Source: Burkholderiales bacterium (GTDB lineage Bacteria > Pseudomonadota > Gammaproteobacteria > Burkholderiales > Burkholderiaceae_B). Taken from it: DNA of 64,000 nt. The notes beneath the pieces are model-generated. The model was given only the letters and a program-made list of their open reading frames with translations, was not told the origin of the DNA and made no database searches. Position 1 is the stretch's first letter, and every line of letters begins with the position of its first letter. A program made the translations under genes and the position numbers. The stretch lies in assembly GCA_021299735.1 (NCBI GenBank), contig JAJTEM010000009.1, positions 124,001 through 188,000 on the forward strand, given 5' to 3'. Shown here in pieces: positions 92-12,331 of this stretch.

Positions 92-302
92 GTTTTATTA
101 GAAGTAACCTAGCTCGTCTCCTGATTCCGCGCGGGTTGGGCGTACACGCTTATTTGCAGCGGTTTGCCACAGTTCAGGATACAAGCTGCGCACGAATAGC
201 CCACCCCCACCCATTTGCGGCCCCCACTCACAACAGCCCAAACGGTTCATTAAACAAAGTTTTCCTGATACATTCACTACACAAGAACAAACCGCACACT
301 CA
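92..302. other. Intergenic region upstream of the helicase-S24 gene
   Basis: No gene is supported here. I looked for an SOS box of the CTG-N10-CAG type, because the downstream protein carries a LexA-like domain, and saw none. No clear -35/-10 pair stands out. Confidence 0.4.
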
Positions 303-2696
303 ATGATCGTTTACACCGCCCGCAAATCAAAGTTTCTGGACGACGTACTGGACGATCAAATTCATGAAGTAATTCACCGCGAATTTCAGCGCAAGCTACA
401 CCGCAGGGCGGGCGAATCGGAAGTGAATTCCTGGCGCAACTCCATGCAACGAATGCAGCAGGTTTTAAGCGACCCCGACATTCCCGCTGATTCACTGGTT
501 TCAATCGAATACAACATACCGCTAACCGGCAAACGCATCGACTTCATTTTGACGGGCCGCAACGCACGGCTTGAAGAATGCGCTGTAATTATTGAACTGA
601 AGCAGTGGAGCGATGTGCAAGCCACCCAGCAAGATGCCGTGGTGAACACCTGGCTGGGCAAAGGCAATATCAACACGCCCCACCCTTCTTACCAGGCATG
701 GACTTACGCCGCGCTAATTGAAGACTATTCCGAAGTAGTACAAAACGAACAGGTTCGCCTAAGCGCCTGCGCCTACCTGCACAACCTGAACAGTGCGCAG
801 GTAATTAACGACCCCTTTTACAAAGCCCACACCGACCGCGCACCCGTATTCATTTCAAAAGACGCACGCAAGCTTTCCGAATTTTTAAAGCAGCATGTAA
901 AGCACGGCGACAAAAATGATTTGATGTACCGCATTGAGCACGGAAAAATTCGTCCATCGAAAAACCTGGCCGACAGCCTGGCCAGCATGCTACAAGGCAA
1001 CCGCGAGTTTTTAATGATCGACGATCAAAAGCTGGTGTACGAAATGGCGCTAGACCTTGCCCATGCCTGCGGCGATTCGGAACAGAAGCGCGTGCTGATA
1101 GTTGAAGGTGGCCCCGGCACCGGCAAATCGGTGGCGGCCATTAACCTGCTGAATGAATTTACGCAGCAGGGCAAAGTGTGCCAATACGTATCGAAAAACG
1201 CAGCGCCGCGCGCCGTGTTTGAAGCCAAGCTAAGCGGCACATTTAAAAAAACACGCATTGCGAATTTGTTCAGGGGTTCTGGCGGGTATGTGAACAACGA
1301 AGCCAATCAGTTTGATGTATTGCTGGTAGACGAAGCCCACCGCCTGAATGAAAAAAGTGGCCTGTACGGCAACCTGGGCGAGAATCAAATTAAAGAACTG
1401 ATTCACGCCAGCAAGCTGTGTATTTTTTTCCTGGATGAAGACCAACGCGTTAGCTTTGCCGACATTGGCAGCAAAGCAGAAATTTACAAATGGGCAAGCG
1501 AACTGGGCGCCACTGTGTATGAACAAGAACTGCGCTCGCAGTTCCGATGCAACGGCAGCGACGGCTACATAGCCTGGTTAAACCACCACCTGCAAATTAA
1601 ACCCACCGCCAACTTGAACTTGGATGGGTTGGGCTTTGATTTCAAAGTGTTCAATTCACCCACAGAATTGCACCAAGCCATTCGCCAGAAAAACAGCGTA
1701 AACAACAAAGCCCGCATGGTGGCTGGCTACTGCTGGGACTGGAAAAGTAAAAAGAACCCGAAAGCTTTCGACATTGAATTTCCCGAACACGGCTACCAAG
1801 CGCAATGGAATTTAGACGACGATGGCAGCACCTGGATTATCAAACCCAACAGCGTAGAACAAGTGGGCTGCATACACACCTGCCAGGGCCTTGAACTGGA
1901 TTACGTGGGCGTAATTGTTGGGCCCGACTTCGTAGTGCGCAATGGCGAAGTGGTAACCGACGCATTCAAGCGCAGCAGCAAAGACAAAAGCATTAAAGGA
2001 TTTAAAAGCGGCCAGAAAAGCAAACTGCAAGCAGACCGGGAACACCACTTGGCAATGGCAGAAGCCGTGATCAAGAATACCTACAAAACATTGATGACCC
2101 GCGGCATGAAGGGCTGTTACGTTTACTTCACGGATGACGAGACACGCACGCACTTTCAAGCGCTGGTGAATGGTTTTGTGCAAGCGGAGGCAGCACCCAT
2201 GTTGACCAAATACGAAGGGCTAGACCTACCCATTGTGCAAGCCGGCGAAGAAGCAGCGAACAGCGTACCCATTTTTGATTTGAAATTTGCCGCCGGGCAA
2301 TTTAGTGAATACCAACAGGCCGACACCTTTGACCATGTTGTACTGCCCGCCCACCTGCGCGCCAGCGAAGGCTATTTTGTAGCGCGCGTGGAAGGCGATT
2401 CAATGAACAAACGCATACCCCCCGGCGCGTGGTGCCTGTTTCACTTCAACCCACAAGGCACACGCAACGGAAAAATAGTGGTTGTGCAACACCGCCAAAT
2501 TTCAGACCCTGAGCTGGGTGGGCAATACACCATTAAACGCTACAAAAGCGAAAAGCATTTTGATGAAGACGGTGTGGTGAACAGCGTGGTGGTGTTGAAA
2601 CCGGAATCGACGAATAGCGCGCATGAAGCGATTGTGCTGAGTGCTGAAGATTCGGAAGAAATGGTTGTGGTGGCGGAGTTTTTGACGGTGGTTTGA
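303..2696 (+). CDS. PD-(D/E)xK-like / DUF2075 helicase / LexA-like S24 fusion protein
   Basis: This 797-aa protein has three parts. Residues about 65-105 hold Asp80 followed by Glu98-x-Lys100 after hydrophobic strands, the pattern of PD-(D/E)xK nucleases. Residues about 240-640 form an SF1 helicase core of the DUF2075 (Schlafen group 3-like) type, with Walker A GGPGTGKS at 269-276 and Walker B DEAH at 343-346. Residues about 655-797 match S24 peptidases (LexA/UmuD), with nucleophile Ser700 in GDSM and Lys745 in TIKRY. An Ala-Gly pair at 664-665 lies 35 residues before the serine, the same spacing as the self-cleavage site in UmuD and close to LexA (34). The inferred role is a DNA-acting, possibly antiphage enzyme controlled by DNA damage. 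Family assignment is firm for helicase and S24; the nuclease part is a motif-level call. Confidence 0.85.
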   Translation: MIVYTARKSKFLDDVLDDQIHEVIHREFQRKLHRRAGESEVNSWRNSMQRMQQVLSDPDIPADSLVSIEYNIPLTGKRIDFILTGRNARLEECAVIIELKQWSDVQATQQDAVVNTWLGKGNINTPHPSYQAWTYAALIEDYSEVVQNEQVRLSACAYLHNLNSAQVINDPFYKAHTDRAPVFISKDARKLSEFLKQHVKHGDKNDLMYRIEHGKIRPSKNLADSLASMLQGNREFLMIDDQKLVYEMALDLAHACGDSEQKRVLIVEGGPGTGKSVAAINLLNEFTQQGKVCQYVSKNAAPRAVFEAKLSGTFKKTRIANLFRGSGGYVNNEANQFDVLLVDEAHRLNEKSGLYGNLGENQIKELIHASKLCIFFLDEDQRVSFADIGSKAEIYKWASELGATVYEQELRSQFRCNGSDGYIAWLNHHLQIKPTANLNLDGLGFDFKVFNSPTELHQAIRQKNSVNNKARMVAGYCWDWKSKKNPKAFDIEFPEHGYQAQWNLDDDGSTWIIKPNSVEQVGCIHTCQGLELDYVGVIVGPDFVVRNGEVVTDAFKRSSKDKSIKGFKSGQKSKLQADREHHLAMAEAVIKNTYKTLMTRGMKGCYVYFTDDETRTHFQALVNGFVQAEAAPMLTKYEGLDLPIVQAGEEAANSVPIFDLKFAAGQFSEYQQADTFDHVVLPAHLRASEGYFVARVEGDSMNKRIPPGAWCLFHFNPQGTRNGKIVVVQHRQISDPELGGQYTIKRYKSEKHFDEDGVVNSVVVLKPESTNSAHEAIVLSAEDSEEMVVVAEFLTVV

Positions 2697-3000: not shown

Positions 3001-4095
3001 ATGCAAAAAGAAAAACACGACTACATTAAGGGCGTTGAACAACTCCATCGCAGTACGTTGGAATTCGCTGCTATCGCGGTGTTGCTGGCACTCGGTGTAA
3101 ATCTACTATCCTCAGCTATTCCTCAAGCATTTTCCTTGACAATTAATACAATACTAGGAATAGGCATCCTGCTGGTTTTGGTAGGTGTCTGTTACGTGAT
3201 GTTGAGAGTCGTTTCTTCACTCTCCAAAACTATCAAGATGGAAGGTGTGCTCCTCTTGTCGAGCAATAACGAAGTGCGCGAAATCGAGCGGTATAGATTT
3301 TCGGAAGAAACCAGAAGCCATATCAAAGGGCTGACTTCGGAAAATAAGGCCTTAGCAAAAACTTGGCAGACTGCAAGTTTAGGGTTTTGCGACGACGAAA
3401 TAGACGAAACAACCCGCAGATTAACGAACAATGCAAATAAGCTCGTGCGTGAAGCTATCGAGTATTTTGTCTTAAGCGAACTCACTCTACATCTAAGCGA
3501 ATATTTCGTCTCCGGAGTACGAGCTAACAATGACGCTGTTGTTACCGTTGAACGACGTGATATCCCACAATTGCTGCTAGACAATCGATTCTTAGAGCTC
3601 TTTTCCAAAGACATGTCTGAGAGAGAGGCATTTCAGTATCACGGAGAAGATTCGCCAGGGAAAATAGTTTTTGCTAAGGGCTCAGAGGGAGAGATATATG
3701 ACAACTTTGAACTTGTGCTGCCCAAAGGGTCGTCGTTGAGCCGACATGGAACAACTTTACGTATACATACACCTCGATTCACCTTGGACATTGATTCAAT
3801 TTACAAGGGATATTCGACGGTCTTGCCACGCGACTTCGAAGAGTTCTACTTAGGCATTCCGTCCAACGAGGTGGACGCACAGCAGGTGAACTTGCGCGTC
3901 ACTGTTAGCTTTAGGTGGTGGAGCGTGCTAAGTTCGCGCAGTTGGGAGTACTTTGCTTGGCTTGATTCATTTCTTGATCGACTTCATGAGTCGTTTCATT
4001 TTGATGCATTCTTGCTTAGTATAGAATGGAAGACAGCCCATACGACCGCAATTGCCATACGCAACGCCAAGTTGTCGGGTAAATATGTTGGCTAA
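3001..4095 (+). CDS. Integron cassette gene: two-TM membrane protein of unknown function
   Basis: The 364-aa product has two N-terminal hydrophobic segments (about residues 21-41 and 47-70) and then a long soluble region that I do not recognise. The predicted topology is a membrane anchor with a cytoplasmic domain of about 290 residues. It is the first gene of the array, after the attI-like repeat. Its TAA stop lies inside the R'' box of the following attC, typical of cassettes. The base composition is more AT-rich than the neighbouring core genes, consistent with transfer. No catalytic motif is visible and no function is proposed. Confidence 0.7.
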   Translation: MQKEKHDYIKGVEQLHRSTLEFAAIAVLLALGVNLLSSAIPQAFSLTINTILGIGILLVLVGVCYVMLRVVSSLSKTIKMEGVLLLSSNNEVREIERYRFSEETRSHIKGLTSENKALAKTWQTASLGFCDDEIDETTRRLTNNANKLVREAIEYFVLSELTLHLSEYFVSGVRANNDAVVTVERRDIPQLLLDNRFLELFSKDMSEREAFQYHGEDSPGKIVFAKGSEGEIYDNFELVLPKGSSLSRHGTTLRIHTPRFTLDIDSIYKGYSTVLPRDFEEFYLGIPSNEVDAQQVNLRVTVSFRWWSVLSSRSWEYFAWLDSFLDRLHESFHFDAFLLSIEWKTAHTTAIAIRNAKLSGKYVG

Positions 4096-4156
4096 CCTTT
4101 CATTCCACCGGACCTGCGCAAAAAGCCGAGCAGGCCGGTGAACTCAAACGTTAGGC
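4090..4156 (+). repeat. attC site 1 (59-base-element type recombination site)
   Basis: R'' GGCTAAC (4090-4096) pairs with R' GTTAGGC (4150-4156) with one mismatch. After a 9-nt spacer the inner arms pair as CACCGG-A-CC with GGCCGGTG, leaving one extrahelical base as expected for a folded attC bottom strand. The tip is a CCTGC/GCAGG hairpin. Total length is 67 nt. These are the defining features of integron attC sites, so the flanking genes are cassettes. Confidence 0.88.
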
Positions 4157-4160
4157 GTCG

Positions 4161-4589
4161 ATGAAGAAGCAGCCCATCAATTCAACTGCCGCGGGTTTAA
4201 TGCTTGACTCGCTTGAGTTCTTCAAAGCTAGCGAACTCGTTCTCAACAGAACATCTGGGGTCTCCTTACCGGCGTACTTCCTACTTGGTCGATCTATTGA
4301 GCTTTCTCTGAAGGCGTTCTTGATTCATTGCGGAGCAAGCGCAGAGGAGACAAAGATCTTCCGGCACAACCTCGTGAAGCTTCTGAGCGAAGCCACAAGC
4401 AGAGGACTGGAAAACCATGTCTCCCTTGAGCAGTCTGAAGTCGCGGCGTTGGATCTGTTGTCCAAGGAATACTTGGCTACTCGTCTTAGCTACCGTGATA
4501 CTGGAAGCACTTACTACTTGCCCTGCATCGACCTTACGGAGAGCGCGGCGAAGAAGCTGATCTGTGGCCTTGAAGGTGTCTGTGTATAG
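4161..4589 (+). CDS. Integron cassette gene: HEPN-like domain protein
   Basis: The 142-aa protein begins only 5 nt after the attC R' box, as in many cassettes. It shows a HEPN-like pattern: an early helix with LLGRSIELSLKAFLI, then a conserved HNL-x-x-LL helix. HEPN proteins are helical and often occur in toxin-antitoxin or defence pairs. The strict Rx4-6H RNase motif is not evident, so nuclease activity should not be assumed, and no adjacent nucleotidyltransferase partner is present. The HEPN assignment is moderate. Confidence 0.7.
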   Translation: MKKQPINSTAAGLMLDSLEFFKASELVLNRTSGVSLPAYFLLGRSIELSLKAFLIHCGASAEETKIFRHNLVKLLSEATSRGLENHVSLEQSEVAALDLLSKEYLATRLSYRDTGSTYYLPCIDLTESAAKKLICGLEGVCV

Positions 4590-4601
4590 CCCCGCGCCGA
4601 C

Positions 4602-4634
4602 GCCTAACCCTTCCATTGAGGGGACGTCAAACGT
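4602..4634 (+). repeat. Decayed attC site 2
   Basis: A good R'' box GCCTAAC (4602-4608) and left-arm sequence are present. The right half is nearly gone: only GTCAAACG followed by TAAG remains where GTTAGGC is expected. This looks like an attC that lost its right arm and part of its core, which would fuse the HEPN-like and protease cassettes into one unit. Confidence 0.55.
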
Positions 4635-4654
4635 AAGAACTCAAGGAGAATTTG

Positions 4655-5461
4655 ATGAATCATTTGTGGAGACAATGTCAAGCGGCAATTTGCTCGCTGA
4701 CATTTGAAAACGCGAACGGCCGCATAACATCTGGCTCAGGCTTTAAAGTAGGAGACTATTTGATCACTAATAATCATGTGATCCAGGTCACGGATGCCCG
4801 GCGAATCGTCATCAGAAGCGTAAATGCAGACTCACATACAACTGCTTTGGATATTTCATTCGGGCATCTTGAGTTCCGTACTTTCTTGGTTGAAGGTGAC
4901 CCAGAAACAGCATGGGATTTTGCGATATTAAGAATCCCAGGGCCTGAATTTCAGGCTTTGCCATCCCTAGAACTTGCTGAGGAAGATGAGATAGAAGTTG
5001 GGAGCCAAATTGCCATTTTCGGGTATCAATTCGATCAAGCACAGCTATCAATGCACATGGGCTATTTGGCTTCGCAATATTTTCGCGCTGGGGTGCACTA
5101 TCTTCAGCTTGATTCAAGTGTAAACCACGGAAATTCTGGCGGTCCTCTAATCGATGCTGTGACCGGTAAAGTGCGCGGAATAGTCACAAGGAAGGCCACT
5201 GGGTTAACTCAACAATTTGATGCGCTGCTGCACTCATTTCAGCAAAATATCAATCAACTGCAGGTTATGCAGCAAGGTGGCGCCCGCGCAATCATTGCTG
5301 GACTTGATCCGGTTGCAGCAATGCTTGCGACTCAAACGCAAATGCAACGGATTGCACAAGAAATTGGTAGGTCGGCCAATGTCGGTATCGGATATGCTTA
5401 TCACATCAACAAAATCAGAGCTAGCTTAGCTAGGCACAGCACTGAAAGCCCATCGCAATGA
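4655..5461 (+). CDS. Integron cassette gene: trypsin-like serine protease
   Basis: The 268-aa product has a chymotrypsin/DegP-like catalytic triad: His in TNNHV (about residue 40), Asp in WDFAIL (about 85) and Ser in HGNSGGPL (about 167). There is no obvious signal peptide and no PDZ domain; the C-terminal 80 residues are helical and unrecognised. ATG 4655 was chosen because AAGGAG lies 6 nt upstream; a TTG directly before it is less likely. Single-domain cytoplasmic proteases of this type occur in defence contexts, where partners may be cleavage targets, but no function can be read from sequence alone. Confidence 0.8.
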   Translation: MNHLWRQCQAAICSLTFENANGRITSGSGFKVGDYLITNNHVIQVTDARRIVIRSVNADSHTTALDISFGHLEFRTFLVEGDPETAWDFAILRIPGPEFQALPSLELAEEDEIEVGSQIAIFGYQFDQAQLSMHMGYLASQYFRAGVHYLQLDSSVNHGNSGGPLIDAVTGKVRGIVTRKATGLTQQFDALLHSFQQNINQLQVMQQGGARAIIAGLDPVAAMLATQTQMQRIAQEIGRSANVGIGYAYHINKIRASLARHSTESPSQ

Positions 5462-6318: not shown

Positions 6319-6365
6319 GCCATGCGTTTAACATCCGTCCTAAGGACGGATGTTAAACGCATGGC
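6319..6365 (+). promoter_or_regulatory. Perfect 47-nt palindrome over the abiE promoter and start
   Basis: Two perfectly complementary 23-nt arms flank a central A at 6342. A TTGACA -35 box lies at 6306-6311, and a TTTAAC or TTAACA -10 falls inside the left arm. The abiEi start codon lies in the right arm. AbiEi antitoxins are known to repress their operon cooperatively through inverted repeats of similar size, so this is very probably the operator. In RNA the leader could also form a strong hairpin hiding the start. Confidence 0.8.
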
Positions 6366-7290
6366 AATAAATATTAAAACAATTCAACCCGAACAAATAG
6401 CCACAAGCATTGCCGCGCAGCTGGCCAAACAAACAGGCCCGGCCATTACGCAGTATGAATTGGCATGCCTGGTATTTCAATGCCTGCCGAATAAAAAATC
6501 AACAACCGCAGCTACAAAAAAACAACTCGACGAAGTTTTAAAACTACTTCAACAATTCCACTTAATACACCCAATTGAACCCTTTGCAGAAACACGCGGG
6601 TACCGGCTGTTTGGGCGTGAACGAAGCACGGCAGTTGAACTTGCATGCAGCCTTGATCCTTTCGCTTACGTATCCCACCTTAGCGCAATGGAACATTACG
6701 GCTTAACCGACCGCCTCTCGCAACTGGTTTATTTAACGCGCCCGAAAGCTTCTGAGTGGTCAACCCTTGCCAAAGCAAAAATGAATCGCGACCTTGGGCA
6801 GCAATCAGAAAATTTTCTGAAGTTGGGCTATCCAAAACCAATTCGCCCTACTTTCAAAAAGCTGTCTGGAATTACGGTGCACCTGCTTGAACGCTCTAAC
6901 CAGGGCGCCTTTCGCACCACAGCACACAGCAGCCTGCGCGTTGCAACAATAGGCCGCGTGTTTCTAGACATGCTTCGCGAACCCGCTTTGTGCGGTGGCC
7001 TGCAACATGTGGTCGACATTTACACCAACCATGCCAAAAAGTACCTGGCATTTGTTGTGGACGAACTGAACACCCATGGCGCACCCATCGACAAAGTAAG
7101 GGCTGGCTACCTGCTTTCCGAAGTTTGCAAACTTAACCACCCGGCTTTTGCCGATTGGGAAAAGTTTGCACAGCGGGGCGGTTCCAGAAAACTGGATCCC
7201 GAAGCCGAATTTGAACCCTTCTATTCTGAACGGTGGAAGCTATCGATCAACCTGCCCTCTTTATTGAACAACGAGAACACCTTTGAATAA
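6361..7290 (+). CDS. AbiEi-family antitoxin of a type IV toxin-antitoxin system
   Basis: The 309-aa protein has an N-terminal winged-helix region (about residues 15-75) followed by the AbiEi antitoxin domain. It includes a segment with SHLSAMEHYGLTDRL and LVYLTRPKASEW, seen in this family. It acts as antitoxin and autorepressor and does not bind the toxin directly. ATG 6361 is preferred; an in-frame ATG at 6322 would translate through the palindrome and lacks a ribosome site. It overlaps abiEii by 8 nt. Confidence 0.82.
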   Translation: MAINIKTIQPEQIATSIAAQLAKQTGPAITQYELACLVFQCLPNKKSTTAATKKQLDEVLKLLQQFHLIHPIEPFAETRGYRLFGRERSTAVELACSLDPFAYVSHLSAMEHYGLTDRLSQLVYLTRPKASEWSTLAKAKMNRDLGQQSENFLKLGYPKPIRPTFKKLSGITVHLLERSNQGAFRTTAHSSLRVATIGRVFLDMLREPALCGGLQHVVDIYTNHAKKYLAFVVDELNTHGAPIDKVRAGYLLSEVCKLNHPAFADWEKFAQRGGSRKLDPEAEFEPFYSERWKLSINLPSLLNNENTFE

Positions 7291-8155
7291 ACAGATTGAA
7301 ACCCTGAACGTAGCCGAATGGGTTGCAAGCGCACCTTTACAGCAACAAGCTTTTCGGGAAGCTGTTCATATTGTGTTGTCGGCAATCGGCAGCAGCGTGC
7401 TGCTGCGTACCAACATGGTGATGAAAGGCGGCATGCTAATGGCCATTCGCTACAACAGCACCCGTTTTACCCGCGACGCCGATTTTTCCACCACGGCACT
7501 TTACCAACAAGGCAATGAGAAAGAATTAATTGAAGAACTTGAAGCCCAAATTCAATATTGCAATCAACTTCTTTCATACAACACCCACTGCACCGTTCAA
7601 TCGTCGAAAATAAGCCCACCAGGCAACAACCGTACACACCCAACATTAAAACTGACGATTGGCTACGCAGCACCAAGCGATCAATCGGCCTTTCGCCGAC
7701 TAATTGCAAAACAGTCACCCAGAATTGTGGAAATTGATTTCAGCTACAACGAGGCGGTACTGGATGTTGAAATGCTTCGGCTTAGCGACCTTGACGAACT
7801 GCATGTGTATAGCTTGGTCAATTTGATGGCGGAAAAGTATAGATCGCTGCTACAGCAACCCATTCGGAAAAGAAATCGGTATCAAGATGTTTACGACCTT
7901 TACTTTCTAATCGAGAAAGCGCCACTGACAGGCCATAGGGAACACCTCGATTTACTTGAATGCATACAAACAACTTGCAACACCAAGGGAATTGAAGCCA
8001 CACCAAACAGCCTAAGAGACACCGCCGTACAAAACATGGCGGCAACGGGCTACAACACACTTACAAACGACCTTCAAGAAAATCTGCCTGAATTTGATGT
8101 GGCTTACTTAAAGGTACGCGAGTTTTACGAAAACTTGCCTTGGGCACTCTCTTGA
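7283..8155 (+). CDS. AbiEii-family nucleotidyltransferase toxin
   Basis: The 290-aa protein is a DUF1814/AbiEii nucleotidyltransferase. Motif I is MKGGMLMAIRY, then TRDADFS with Asp65 and Asp67 as likely metal ligands. A later RKRNRYQDVYDLYFL segment fits the family's third motif. AbiEii/MenT-type toxins transfer nucleotides to RNA and cause growth arrest or abortive infection. The overlap with abiEi shows an operon. The gene is full length and motifs are intact, so the system is probably active. Confidence 0.85.
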   Translation: MNKQIETLNVAEWVASAPLQQQAFREAVHIVLSAIGSSVLLRTNMVMKGGMLMAIRYNSTRFTRDADFSTTALYQQGNEKELIEELEAQIQYCNQLLSYNTHCTVQSSKISPPGNNRTHPTLKLTIGYAAPSDQSAFRRLIAKQSPRIVEIDFSYNEAVLDVEMLRLSDLDELHVYSLVNLMAEKYRSLLQQPIRKRNRYQDVYDLYFLIEKAPLTGHREHLDLLECIQTTCNTKGIEATPNSLRDTAVQNMAATGYNTLTNDLQENLPEFDVAYLKVREFYENLPWALS

Positions 8156-10456: not shown

Positions 10457-12331
10457 TTAAAGAGACCCCGAACGGATCGCATCCAGCAAACCGATGCGTT
10501 GGTATTCTGGCACCAGCTCCACCAGCTCAGCGAATGCATGAATGGCCGCCGTTTTGTTGTAATACAGACCAGTATCCAGCGCTGTCATTCCATCTGCCGA
10601 CCTGGCAGCCAACACCTTGGCACGCTGATGCTCTGGAACCGCCAACAAAAACGGTTTAAAAGCTCGAATACACTCTAAGCGCCCATGTCTCATGGCCAAG
10701 TTCAGCCCGAAGGGTTTCTTTCCGACTTTGATATTTGCCAAGTCCAGTTGGCCAGCACGAATCGCATTTTGCACCGCTGGCGTCAGGTCTCTTAACGTGC
10801 CATCGAAACCATGGAAAAGCAAAAACCACAAAGTCGCTTCTGAAACAGAATTGTTTTTCATATTCAAAGTAACCTTCCGGTTTTGGCGAACGGGTGACAA
10901 ACCTGCTTCTGCCTCAAGAATTCCAAGGGTTTGCGCCGAAGTACCGGTGACATACATCATCGATAAATTTTGACCATCGGGGTAGTAATTTGAATAAAGC
11001 GTTGTATAAGCGGGGTGATTGAACAAGTCTTTCACGCGCAGCATATACAGTGCGTTTAATTCCGTGTGTGCAAAACGAACATGATTATTCGTTCTGTTGG
11101 GGTCATAGAACTCTGTCACATACTGCGTATGCCCCAGCTTGCCTGTCTTTACACGCAGCTGCAAACTCATCACATGGCCAGCTGAAAGCAACACAATGTA
11201 TCGAACTGACTCTTGTTGTTTGTTTGCCCCGTCAATGGTGTTGCTCATTCGGGCATTCATCCCCTTGAACTGTTCAATCAGGGTTGCACCAAGCTCATCG
11301 TTGTTGATCAAATAAGGCTCGGCGGCATTCGCCATGACTTGTTTAAACTTTCGTTCGAACTCCCATGCCACCCTGTTTTTCAGATCTGCCGCGCTGGCAA
11401 AATAATCTTGAACCTGGGTATCAGTTTGTATTCGAAACTTGCCCTGAGCTTGCGCGGCCTGGGTCTGTATTCTATGCATGACCAAATGGCGGCAAACAAT
11501 TTGACTTCGAGTCCGCTCATGAAAGCAAACTTTTTTATTGAAGTTGGTGAGCAAATGAACACCCTGGCGCGCAGGGTAAGGAATTTCTTTGAGCAGCCGC
11601 TTGACGACTGGGTTCTGAATTTTTTCTTGCTGGTCCACCACCTCAATAGAATATGAATCGGGTGTTAGCAACAACCTGGCGCGTTGCAATTCCAGCTCGG
11701 CTTGATTGTTTTTCCGATCACCCTGTGGTTTGGCAGCAGCACCCTGAACATTCGTGCCACGAGTTTCAAATACCGTACGCAAGGTTGATTGCAACTCTTC
11801 GGGAATGCCTCGAAGTGAGCCACTGAACGAAGCATTCTGAAGCCATGAGAATGACGAACTAAAGTTATCGCTTGTCCCATCGCCCGCAGCGGGTGGATAA
11901 AGTATCAGAAACCGCCTGACCAAATTAAAATGCTGAAGTATTTTTGGGGATGAATAATCAAGATTCAGCTTGTCGATCGCATTGTGCAATGCTCCCTCAC
12001 CAGGCAATCGGGAAATTTGTTCTAACGACCAATTGACCAGTTTCATGTGTTTATCCCGATCGGGATTATCATGGCGCTTGTCGCTAATTCCAAGCTGAAG
12101 CGCAGCATCTAGAAACGCAATTTTTTCTGAACCAATTGCTCTACACAACTCGGCCGACAACTCTTTCAGCTCCGACTGATGCGGTCCTTTGCTTACCGAC
12201 CCTGAGGTCAAAAATCGGCCAAGTACATGCTTGAAATTCTGTAAAGTTTCTGAACCAAGACCACGTACATCATCACCCAGTGCGAACAAACCAGGGCTTT
12301 GATTATTGTGGCTGGGAGGCAAACCGCGCAT
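10457..12331 (-). CDS. ShET2/EspL-like type III effector-type cysteine protease
   Basis: The 624-aa protein resembles the ShET2/EspL2 effector family. Candidate catalytic residues are Cys280 (IVCRHL), His386 (SAGHVMSL) and Asp410 (FYDPN). EspL uses Cys-His-Asp with a similar His-Asp spacing. The C-terminal region, about residues 535-624, contains ankyrin-like repeats of the form found in these effectors (AMRHGRLECIRAF; ADGMTALDTGLYYNKTAAIHAF). Such effectors are injected into eukaryotic cells and cleave host proteins such as RHIM-domain kinases. No type III secretion genes lie in this window. There is no Sec signal peptide, consistent with an effector. The start codon at 12331 is tentative. 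Confidence 0.68.
   Translation of the reverse strand: MRGLPPSHNNQSPGLFALGDDVRGLGSETLQNFKHVLGRFLTSGSVSKGPHQSELKELSAELCRAIGSEKIAFLDAALQLGISDKRHDNPDRDKHMKLVNWSLEQISRLPGEGALHNAIDKLNLDYSSPKILQHFNLVRRFLILYPPAAGDGTSDNFSSSFSWLQNASFSGSLRGIPEELQSTLRTVFETRGTNVQGAAAKPQGDRKNNQAELELQRARLLLTPDSYSIEVVDQQEKIQNPVVKRLLKEIPYPARQGVHLLTNFNKKVCFHERTRSQIVCRHLVMHRIQTQAAQAQGKFRIQTDTQVQDYFASAADLKNRVAWEFERKFKQVMANAAEPYLINNDELGATLIEQFKGMNARMSNTIDGANKQQESVRYIVLLSAGHVMSLQLRVKTGKLGHTQYVTEFYDPNRTNNHVRFAHTELNALYMLRVKDLFNHPAYTTLYSNYYPDGQNLSMMYVTGTSAQTLGILEAEAGLSPVRQNRKVTLNMKNNSVSEATLWFLLFHGFDGTLRDLTPAVQNAIRAGQLDLANIKVGKKPFGLNLAMRHGRLECIRAFKPFLLAVPEHQRAKVLAARSADGMTALDTGLYYNKTAAIHAFAELVELVPEYQRIGLLDAIRSGSL

Follow-up and report, generated by a model that had tools for sequence, protein, structure and literature searches.

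Among the described systems closest to the protein considered here are Nhi and AbiO, single-chain defence proteins whose PADLOC models match the helicase part of its homologues. Nhi is described as an anti-phage nuclease-helicase that nicks and unwinds DNA and whose activity depends on the phage SSB (PMC12904381). The protein in question is the 797-residue product of an open reading frame at positions 303..2696 (+ strand, as are all its features given below) of a 64,000-nucleotide stretch of contig JAJTEM010000009.1 (assembly GCA_021299735.1, positions 124,001 to 188,000), hereafter the window, from the genus Limnobacter, and it combines a nuclease-like domain, a Schlafen-group-3 (SLFN) helicase and a LexA/UmuD-type S24 domain in one chain. 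We propose, tentatively and at somewhat short of an even chance for the whole sequence of steps, that it is an anti-phage-type nuclease-helicase equipped with its own LexA-type fuse, which would act as a damage-triggered off-switch.

The PADLOC models PDC-S41, AbiO and Nhi each gave partial matches to all 46 homologues scanned. Full-length agreement with Nhi or AbiO was not found, as the window protein aligns with these models at the P-loop part only (residues 235-417 for AbiO, 260-417 for Nhi) and they cover neither its N-terminal nor its S24 domain. PDC-S41 spans the nuclease-like region at the N-terminus and extends into the beginning of the helicase (residues 4-301; E 9.2e-17), but it is a PADLOC candidate class, the match is distant (58.6 bits), and it stops short of S24. 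These matches place the protein in an anti-phage-type family and agree with the antiphage role that a preliminary description of the window had thought plausible and that we regard as likely.

To our knowledge, the known self-cleaving S24 proteins are repressors or UmuD-type polymerase subunits; in the window protein, the domain instead occupies the C-terminus of an enzyme. Two further systems offer functional parallels. Hachiman (HamAB) is likewise a nuclease-helicase defence that reads genome integrity, but it consists of two proteins with a helicase of another family, has no S24 reported in the source, and is turned on by damage (PMC12278908). Type I restriction involves a DNA motor-nuclease that ClpXP removes when host DNA is at risk, the removal of HsdR constituting restriction alleviation in E. 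coli (PMC4231737, PMC11109961), and one HsdR described below carries the same S24 type; in E. coli, however, EcoKI is controlled without any S24, and the former source did not find its degron (PMC4231737). A BREX paper that mentions Schlafen refers to Schlafen RNases, and its main text does not refer to S24, LexA, MazG or DUF2075. Among the papers listed by a full-text literature search, judged by titles and the beginnings of abstracts, none centred on DUF2075 and none described S24 fused to a nuclease-helicase, within a coverage that leaves subscription journals and most preprints outside. The helicase core is thus of a known kind, and a LexA-type fuse on such a core is undescribed within the literature searched.

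Architecture and conservation of the chain

A scan of genome contigs confirmed 316 relatives, from which the best 80 loci were kept and combined with copies from the genus genomes and the source genome to give 89 proteins (labels L and G with a number denote the loci and genomes of this analysis, G000 being the source genome). The alignment comprises 68 homologues longer than 700 residues, 63 of them distinct because some represent one species reached by two routes; L090 (a duplicate of the source gene) and L054 (whose gene is in two pieces) were left out, and the remaining 19 proteins are short forms. The helicase lies at residues 262-611 (1086..2135) and is matched by Pfam SLFN-g3_helicase, which we take to be the former DUF2075, at E 2.8e-103 and 346 bits against a cut-off of 24. 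Its Walker A motif GGPGTGKS (residues 269-276; 1107..1130) is invariant at positions 269-274, and in the DEAH motif (residues 343-346; 1329..1340) D343 and E344 are present in 68/68 and H346 in 66/68.

The N-terminal nuclease-like domain (residues 1-250; 303..1052) is a probable PD-(D/E)xK nuclease fold, as suggested by its motifs and by profile matches below threshold. Asp80 (540..542), a putative metal ligand, and Glu98-Leu-Lys100 (594..602), belonging to the putative nuclease site, form a triad of D80, E98 and K100 that is invariant in 68/68; the invariant N-terminal positions also take in E98-LKQW-102, H127-PSYQAW-133 and Y135, a pattern also known from RecB-type PD-(D/E)xK nucleases. Residues 1-254 of the window protein matched no Pfam family, and a profile of the N-terminal part matched no PDB chain, the single match at E 1.9 being to neurofibromin. 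When 30 homologous N-termini were compared with Pfam at E up to 5, NERD appeared in six and Endonuc_Holl in four (best E 7.3e-5, all under the Pfam cut-off where a score was given) among 33 families in all, many of them plainly unrelated. Ten scanned singly yielded NERD three times, Endonuc_Holl twice and DUF2726 once, in each case across D80-E98-K100 and under the cut-off, the remainder giving no match or unrelated ones. We take these three families to share the PD-(D/E)xK fold. The D...E-x-K pattern noted in the preliminary description holds throughout the alignment; the fold itself is suggested by weak sub-threshold family matches, and no PDB match was found for it.

The S24 domain occupies residues 656-797 (2268..2693) and scores above the curated Pfam cut-off (Peptidase_S24 at 657-781; E 7.4e-9, 35.8 bits against 23.3). 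A profile built from 31 such domains and searched against the PDB at E up to 10 listed 13 sequences, all LexA or UmuD and all weak (best E 0.0078), and PHROG 4, a family of phage repressors, matched residues 648-750 at E 5.3e-10. As in LexA, UmuD and CI, a cut site, a serine and a lysine follow in order. The predicted self-cleavage site Ala664-Gly665 (2292..2297) is Ala/Cys-Gly in 67/68 homologues, with position 664 occupied by A in 50, C in 17 and T in one, and position 665 by G in 67 and A in one; Ser700 (2400..2402), the predicted nucleophile, is found in 68/68, and Lys745 (2535..2537), the predicted general base, in 67/68. The preliminary description had also pointed to the UmuD spacing of 35 residues between Gly and Ser. 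This is found in 54/68 homologues; the Ser-to-Lys spacing, which it did not mention, is 45 in 67/68, against 37 in LexA and UmuD, suggesting an insertion of about eight residues between the two catalytic positions. As far as the alignment can tell, the LexA-type cutting apparatus is complete and conserved.

The sole homologue that departs from the pattern at both the cut site and the lysine is L020, whose sister on the tree, L049, is intact; such joint decay is what would be expected of residues that work as a set. The residues in question recur, at roughly 46-60% identity, in named members of Pseudomonadota and Bacteroidota as well as in metagenome-assembled genomes assigned to Nitrospira, Prosthecobacter and Acidobacteriota; within Limnobacter, the gene is found in six named records, with 77-90% identity. 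Among seven Limnobacter sequences, the nuclease-like part has a median ratio of nonsynonymous to synonymous substitution (dN/dS) of 0.043, the helicase one of 0.076 and S24 one of 0.062 (21 pairs); the variable linker (residues 612-655, 2136..2267) has the highest of the four parts, 0.132 (20 pairs). The distance from residue 612 to 664 ranges from 45 to 69 residues across the alignment. In Limnobacter, S24 evolves under purifying selection, and this, with the retention of the residues across phyla at such identities, argues for conservation beyond chance. The three-part architecture of the preliminary description and its S24 domain with both catalytic residues accordingly stand: D80, E98, K100, A664, G665, S700 and K745 lie where it placed them, and the combination of cut site, Ser and Lys, whose loss among homologues would have told against it, is retained.

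Proposed consequences of a predicted self-cleavage

In the scheme we favour, the SLFN helicase motor of the intact chain would engage foreign or abnormal DNA and bring the N-terminal nuclease there. Upon host DNA damage, RecA on single-stranded DNA would prompt S24 to cleave the chain it belongs to at the Ala664-Gly665 bond, severing the nuclease-helicase from the last 133 residues and leaving it with the predicted new end Phe-Ala-Ala. That end would most likely mark the nuclease-helicase for ClpXP, as in LexA, and the removal of the enzyme would spare the host chromosome during repair, amounting to a built-in, post-translational restriction alleviation. The steps differ in strength. Self-cleavage is very likely, stimulation by RecA is fairly likely, and the proposition that cleavage switches the enzyme off is evenly poised; the activity is probably tied to DNA damage, with off more likely than on. 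The source genome encodes RecA, ClpX and a LexA-like protein, and S24 occurs in it twice, in the window protein and in that second protein, which reads by eye as LexA (RVAA|G, GMSM, TVKR).

The off direction is preferred to the on direction because of natural forms that lack S24, the retention of L020 with a seemingly uncuttable S24, the LexA-like ends that the cut would create, and an HsdR that ends in the same S24 type. Residues P3-P1 at the predicted cut end show Ala-Ala in 50/68 homologues, and the same xAA end recurs in the five forms with a GIY-YIG-like domain and in the HsdR fusion described below, as well as in the source genome's LexA-like protein. Once LexA is cleaved, latent ClpX signals adjoining the cut bring about the destruction of its N-terminal part (PMC5742171, PMC10584840).

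The forms without S24 are 17 in number once the contig-end artefact L050 is set aside. On a tree of 78 rows (11 of the 89 proteins being left out as duplicates, truncated or split), S24 presence required four changes, compared with a mean of 16.6 in shuffles; L050 was then counted as S24-less, so that the count of changes should fall by one. The S24-less L052 is 83.7% identical over 621 residues to the S24-bearing L025, and no S24 remnant was found at its locus. No separate S24 partner near the S24-less homologues was found among the neighbouring frames of 81 loci, and when the 19 short-form loci were searched by tblastn with six S24 domains, the matches were just the truncated L036 gene and a weak 26-residue match in L068. 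The nuclease-helicase core thus exists without the S24 switch and, given 17 such natural forms and the closeness of L052 to L025, removal of S24 yields no obviously unworkable protein. Searches of phages matched four records, none covering 80% of the query, those of plasmids matched 38, one of which, a Halomonas replicon, covers at least 80%, and 15 pattern matches in viral contigs included none confirmed as a relative. Microcystis phage Mwe-JY31 (PP438423.1, 3861-5705) encodes a homologue of residues 1-619 that is 55% identical, with no match to the S24 part reported.

The opposite arrangement would have S24 lock the nuclease-helicase, for example as a dimer, until cleavage, stimulated by RecA on single-stranded DNA that a phage or damage has induced, sets free a DNA-destroying enzyme for defence or suicide. 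It draws on the same conserved cleavage set, on the position of S24 as a tail behind the whole enzyme on a variable linker, from which a cut would release the enzyme cleanly, and on Hachiman and AbpAB as precedents for damage-activated nuclease-helicase defence (PMC12278908, PMC10732053). The 17 homologues without any S24, the retention of the L020 enzyme with its apparently uncuttable domain and the LexA-like xAA end in 50/68 are, however, poorly accommodated by it, and the activation of AbpAB by mitomycin C is independent of RecA and LexA (PMC10732053). We consider it unlikely, and the earlier proposal that cleavage releases or activates the nuclease-helicase is not supported: the core occurs in homologues that lack S24, of which one shares 84% identity with a form that has it, and the predicted cut end resembles the one by which LexA is destroyed.

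More improbable still is that S24 cuts its chain in response to something other than RecA, be it engagement of DNA by the helicase, a phage factor or slow constitutive self-cleavage, in which case damage control would not be its purpose. Streptococcus mutans IrvR self-cleaves without RecA, though the source treats this as exceptional for a LexA-like protein (PMC7101444); an S24 domain fused to a DNA motor could read the state of that motor, and the Ser-Lys spacing is unlike that of LexA, but no specific other trigger is indicated here.

Several of these observations also weigh against the damage-triggered off-switch itself: the departure of the Ser-Lys spacing from that of LexA and UmuD, the 17/68 predicted cut ends that finish in -Cys and not -AA, and the S24-less forms, which may be under another control. 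To them are added the precedents in which damage switches nuclease-helicase defences on, the RecA independence of the LexA-like IrvR, the lack of any HsdR-S24 fusion besides G259 in the class and phylum genome samples, and a MazG-like partner that lies near most homologues and is absent at the window locus, for which the scheme does not account.

If the protein is under SOS control, that control would have to be post-translational, as no LexA box with fewer than two mismatches lies within 300 bases upstream of the window gene. The upstream intergenic stretch (92..302) also gave no match to a sigma-70-like promoter. The box search extended to as much as 300 bases upstream of all 89 genes (less for L021 and L029, none for L051) and returned one-mismatch boxes at L008, L015, L016, L021, L048 and L075, all outside Limnobacter; no box matched more closely than that. 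Transcriptional SOS control through an upstream LexA box is unsupported by this search.

The S24 type on other enzymes

Five proteins carry a GIY-YIG-like domain ahead of the helicase-S24 tail: L091 and L092, which belong to the same family (L091:7052-9241, L092:7384-9582), L139 (6862-9048), L140 (3945-6128) and L141 (7871-10069). Four of them were scanned with Pfam, and the GIY-YIG-like domain gave matches below the cut-off, with E from 1.7e-4 to 0.05. The AAG site, Ser and Lys were present in 5/5 examined. A MazG-like frame precedes all five, although in L140 this is just a 65-residue frame. In these forms, the nuclease appears to have been exchanged and the helicase and switch kept. In G259, a 1188-residue HsdR (L138:218-3784, - strand; HSDR_N, SWI2/SNF2 and T1R_D3-like parts) ends in the same S24 type with a predicted Ala-Ala cut end, and its gene stands in a row with hsdM, hsdS and a gene for an OLD-like ATPase. 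The relatives of this HsdR in G261 and G101 match outside the S24 part only. The same S24 type was also met at a contig end in G157, and L080, although placed within the S24-less branch, has an S24 of another kind, in which the cut site is Cys-Gly and Ser and Lys are 37 residues apart.

The S24 profile had matches at E 1e-3 in 25 of the 274 genomes sampled from the class; six places fell below 1e-40, the source genome's included, and the weaker matches are largely LexA-like by eye. In the phylum sample, 5/398 genomes matched at 1e-12, again including the source genome; the search for further HsdR-S24 fusions in the phylum appears to have covered these same 398 genomes. It is tempting to regard S24 as a portable damage fuse grafted on several DNA-attacking motors (nuclease-like SLFN, GIY-YIG-SLFN and HsdR), with RecA filaments triggering self-cleavage and destruction without LexA-controlled transcription, a generalization that we hold to be rather doubtful.

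An internal S24-like domain with an A-C-G site and Ser is also seen in PLD/DEAD/DUF3427-type helicases (L143:5268-8576, which is the same as L114; L118; L121; and L022:12526-16374, a copy adjoining a gene of the nuclease-helicase family). In L114/L143, L118 and L121, this S24 is more distant and by eye has Arg at the Lys position, as apparently does the L022 copy, and the domain of these helicases is possibly a dead or different switch.

Genomic site and neighbouring genes

The full gene is present in 8 of 16 Limnobacter genomes. Flanking DNA on either side of the gene is common to five loci or genomes (L001, L002, L038, G007 and G009) and lies some 4.7-6.3 kb upstream and 12.5-13.8 kb downstream of the window start; L003 and L005 have the upstream flank in common with them, and L004 shares just the gene itself. 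G008 has both flanks with the gene absent between them. G004 (L096, L097) retains a remnant made up of fragments from the two ends of the gene and containing a stop; the first fragment lies at a contig end, and Glu replaces the cut-site Gly. Patchy presence and common flanks together identify an accessory gene at a recurrent chromosomal site in Limnobacter.

Downstream in the window lie genes for a protein without a Pfam match over the cut-off, a HEPN-like protein, a trypsin-like protease, a RelE-like/helix-turn-helix pair and AbiEi/AbiEii, the RelE-like and HEPN-like matches being below cut-off. The AbiEi/AbiEii pair (6322-7290 and 7283-8155; 6322..8155, + strand), recognized by Pfam and by PADLOC (E 2.4e-104 and 2.3e-106), is context and separate from the protein, and with the RelE-like pair it bears out the earlier placement of the gene at the border of an accessory region with toxin-antitoxin systems. 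The three genes at 3001-5461 (+ strand) possibly form a small defence-type cluster: the first product resembles Saf_2TM weakly and below cut-off, the next is HEPN-like at a score just below it, and the trypsin-like protease also resembles the protease parts of reverse transcriptase-associated and other PADLOC models. A 624-residue protein encoded at 10457-12331 (- strand) matches the ShET2 enterotoxin N-terminal region family (PF07906, E 8.9e-31).

Across 81 loci, tallied with no matched control, neighbours include AbiEi-type genes in 14 and AbiEii-type genes in 11 (clusters named from the L006 copies), a DUF3427 helicase cluster in nine (named from L001) and Fic proteins. The survey of homologue neighbourhoods for defence genes suggested in the preliminary description was run on 133 frames adjoining the homologues (140 drawn at random from the 226 at 33 loci, less seven that were set aside, six of them longer than 1000 residues), likewise with no control; PADLOC returned 154 redundant families, headed by candidate classes in 3/133, and no defence enrichment can be claimed from it.

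A frequent companion is a MazG-like gene (PF12643; E 2.9e-14 for the copy at L006:9636-10004), present in the fetched flanks of 71/80 loci with both S24-bearing and S24-less forms. It lies directly before the nuclease-helicase in 48/54 loci of the neighbour cluster and after the gene in Halomonas, and the nine loci without it comprise six from Limnobacter together with L030, L040 and L051, the last of which starts at a contig end. DefensePredictor lists the MazG domain among its uncharacterized predicted defence domains (PMC13092281). A MazG-like gene occurs elsewhere in 9/10 Limnobacter genomes searched and is probably resident there, since G001 and G008 have it with no copy of the nuclease-helicase. 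MazG as an essential partner was rejected for Limnobacter, where it is absent beside the gene and a probably resident copy lies elsewhere.

The least probable of the alternatives, a DNA-repair or genome-maintenance enzyme under SOS control with no part in defence, can appeal to the fact that RecA/LexA logic is repair logic and to a Limnobacter gene that recurs at one chromosomal site with no MazG-like neighbour, but it sits poorly with a gene so patchily present (including the empty G008 site and the G004 remnant), with neighbours such as AbiE pairs, the restriction-like DUF3427 helicase group and Fic proteins, and with a core that matches defence models. A conserved S24 switch on DNA-cutting motors would couple the SOS signal to immunity directly and at the post-translational level, and would help to explain how a nuclease-helicase defence can keep from killing a host whose DNA is damaged.

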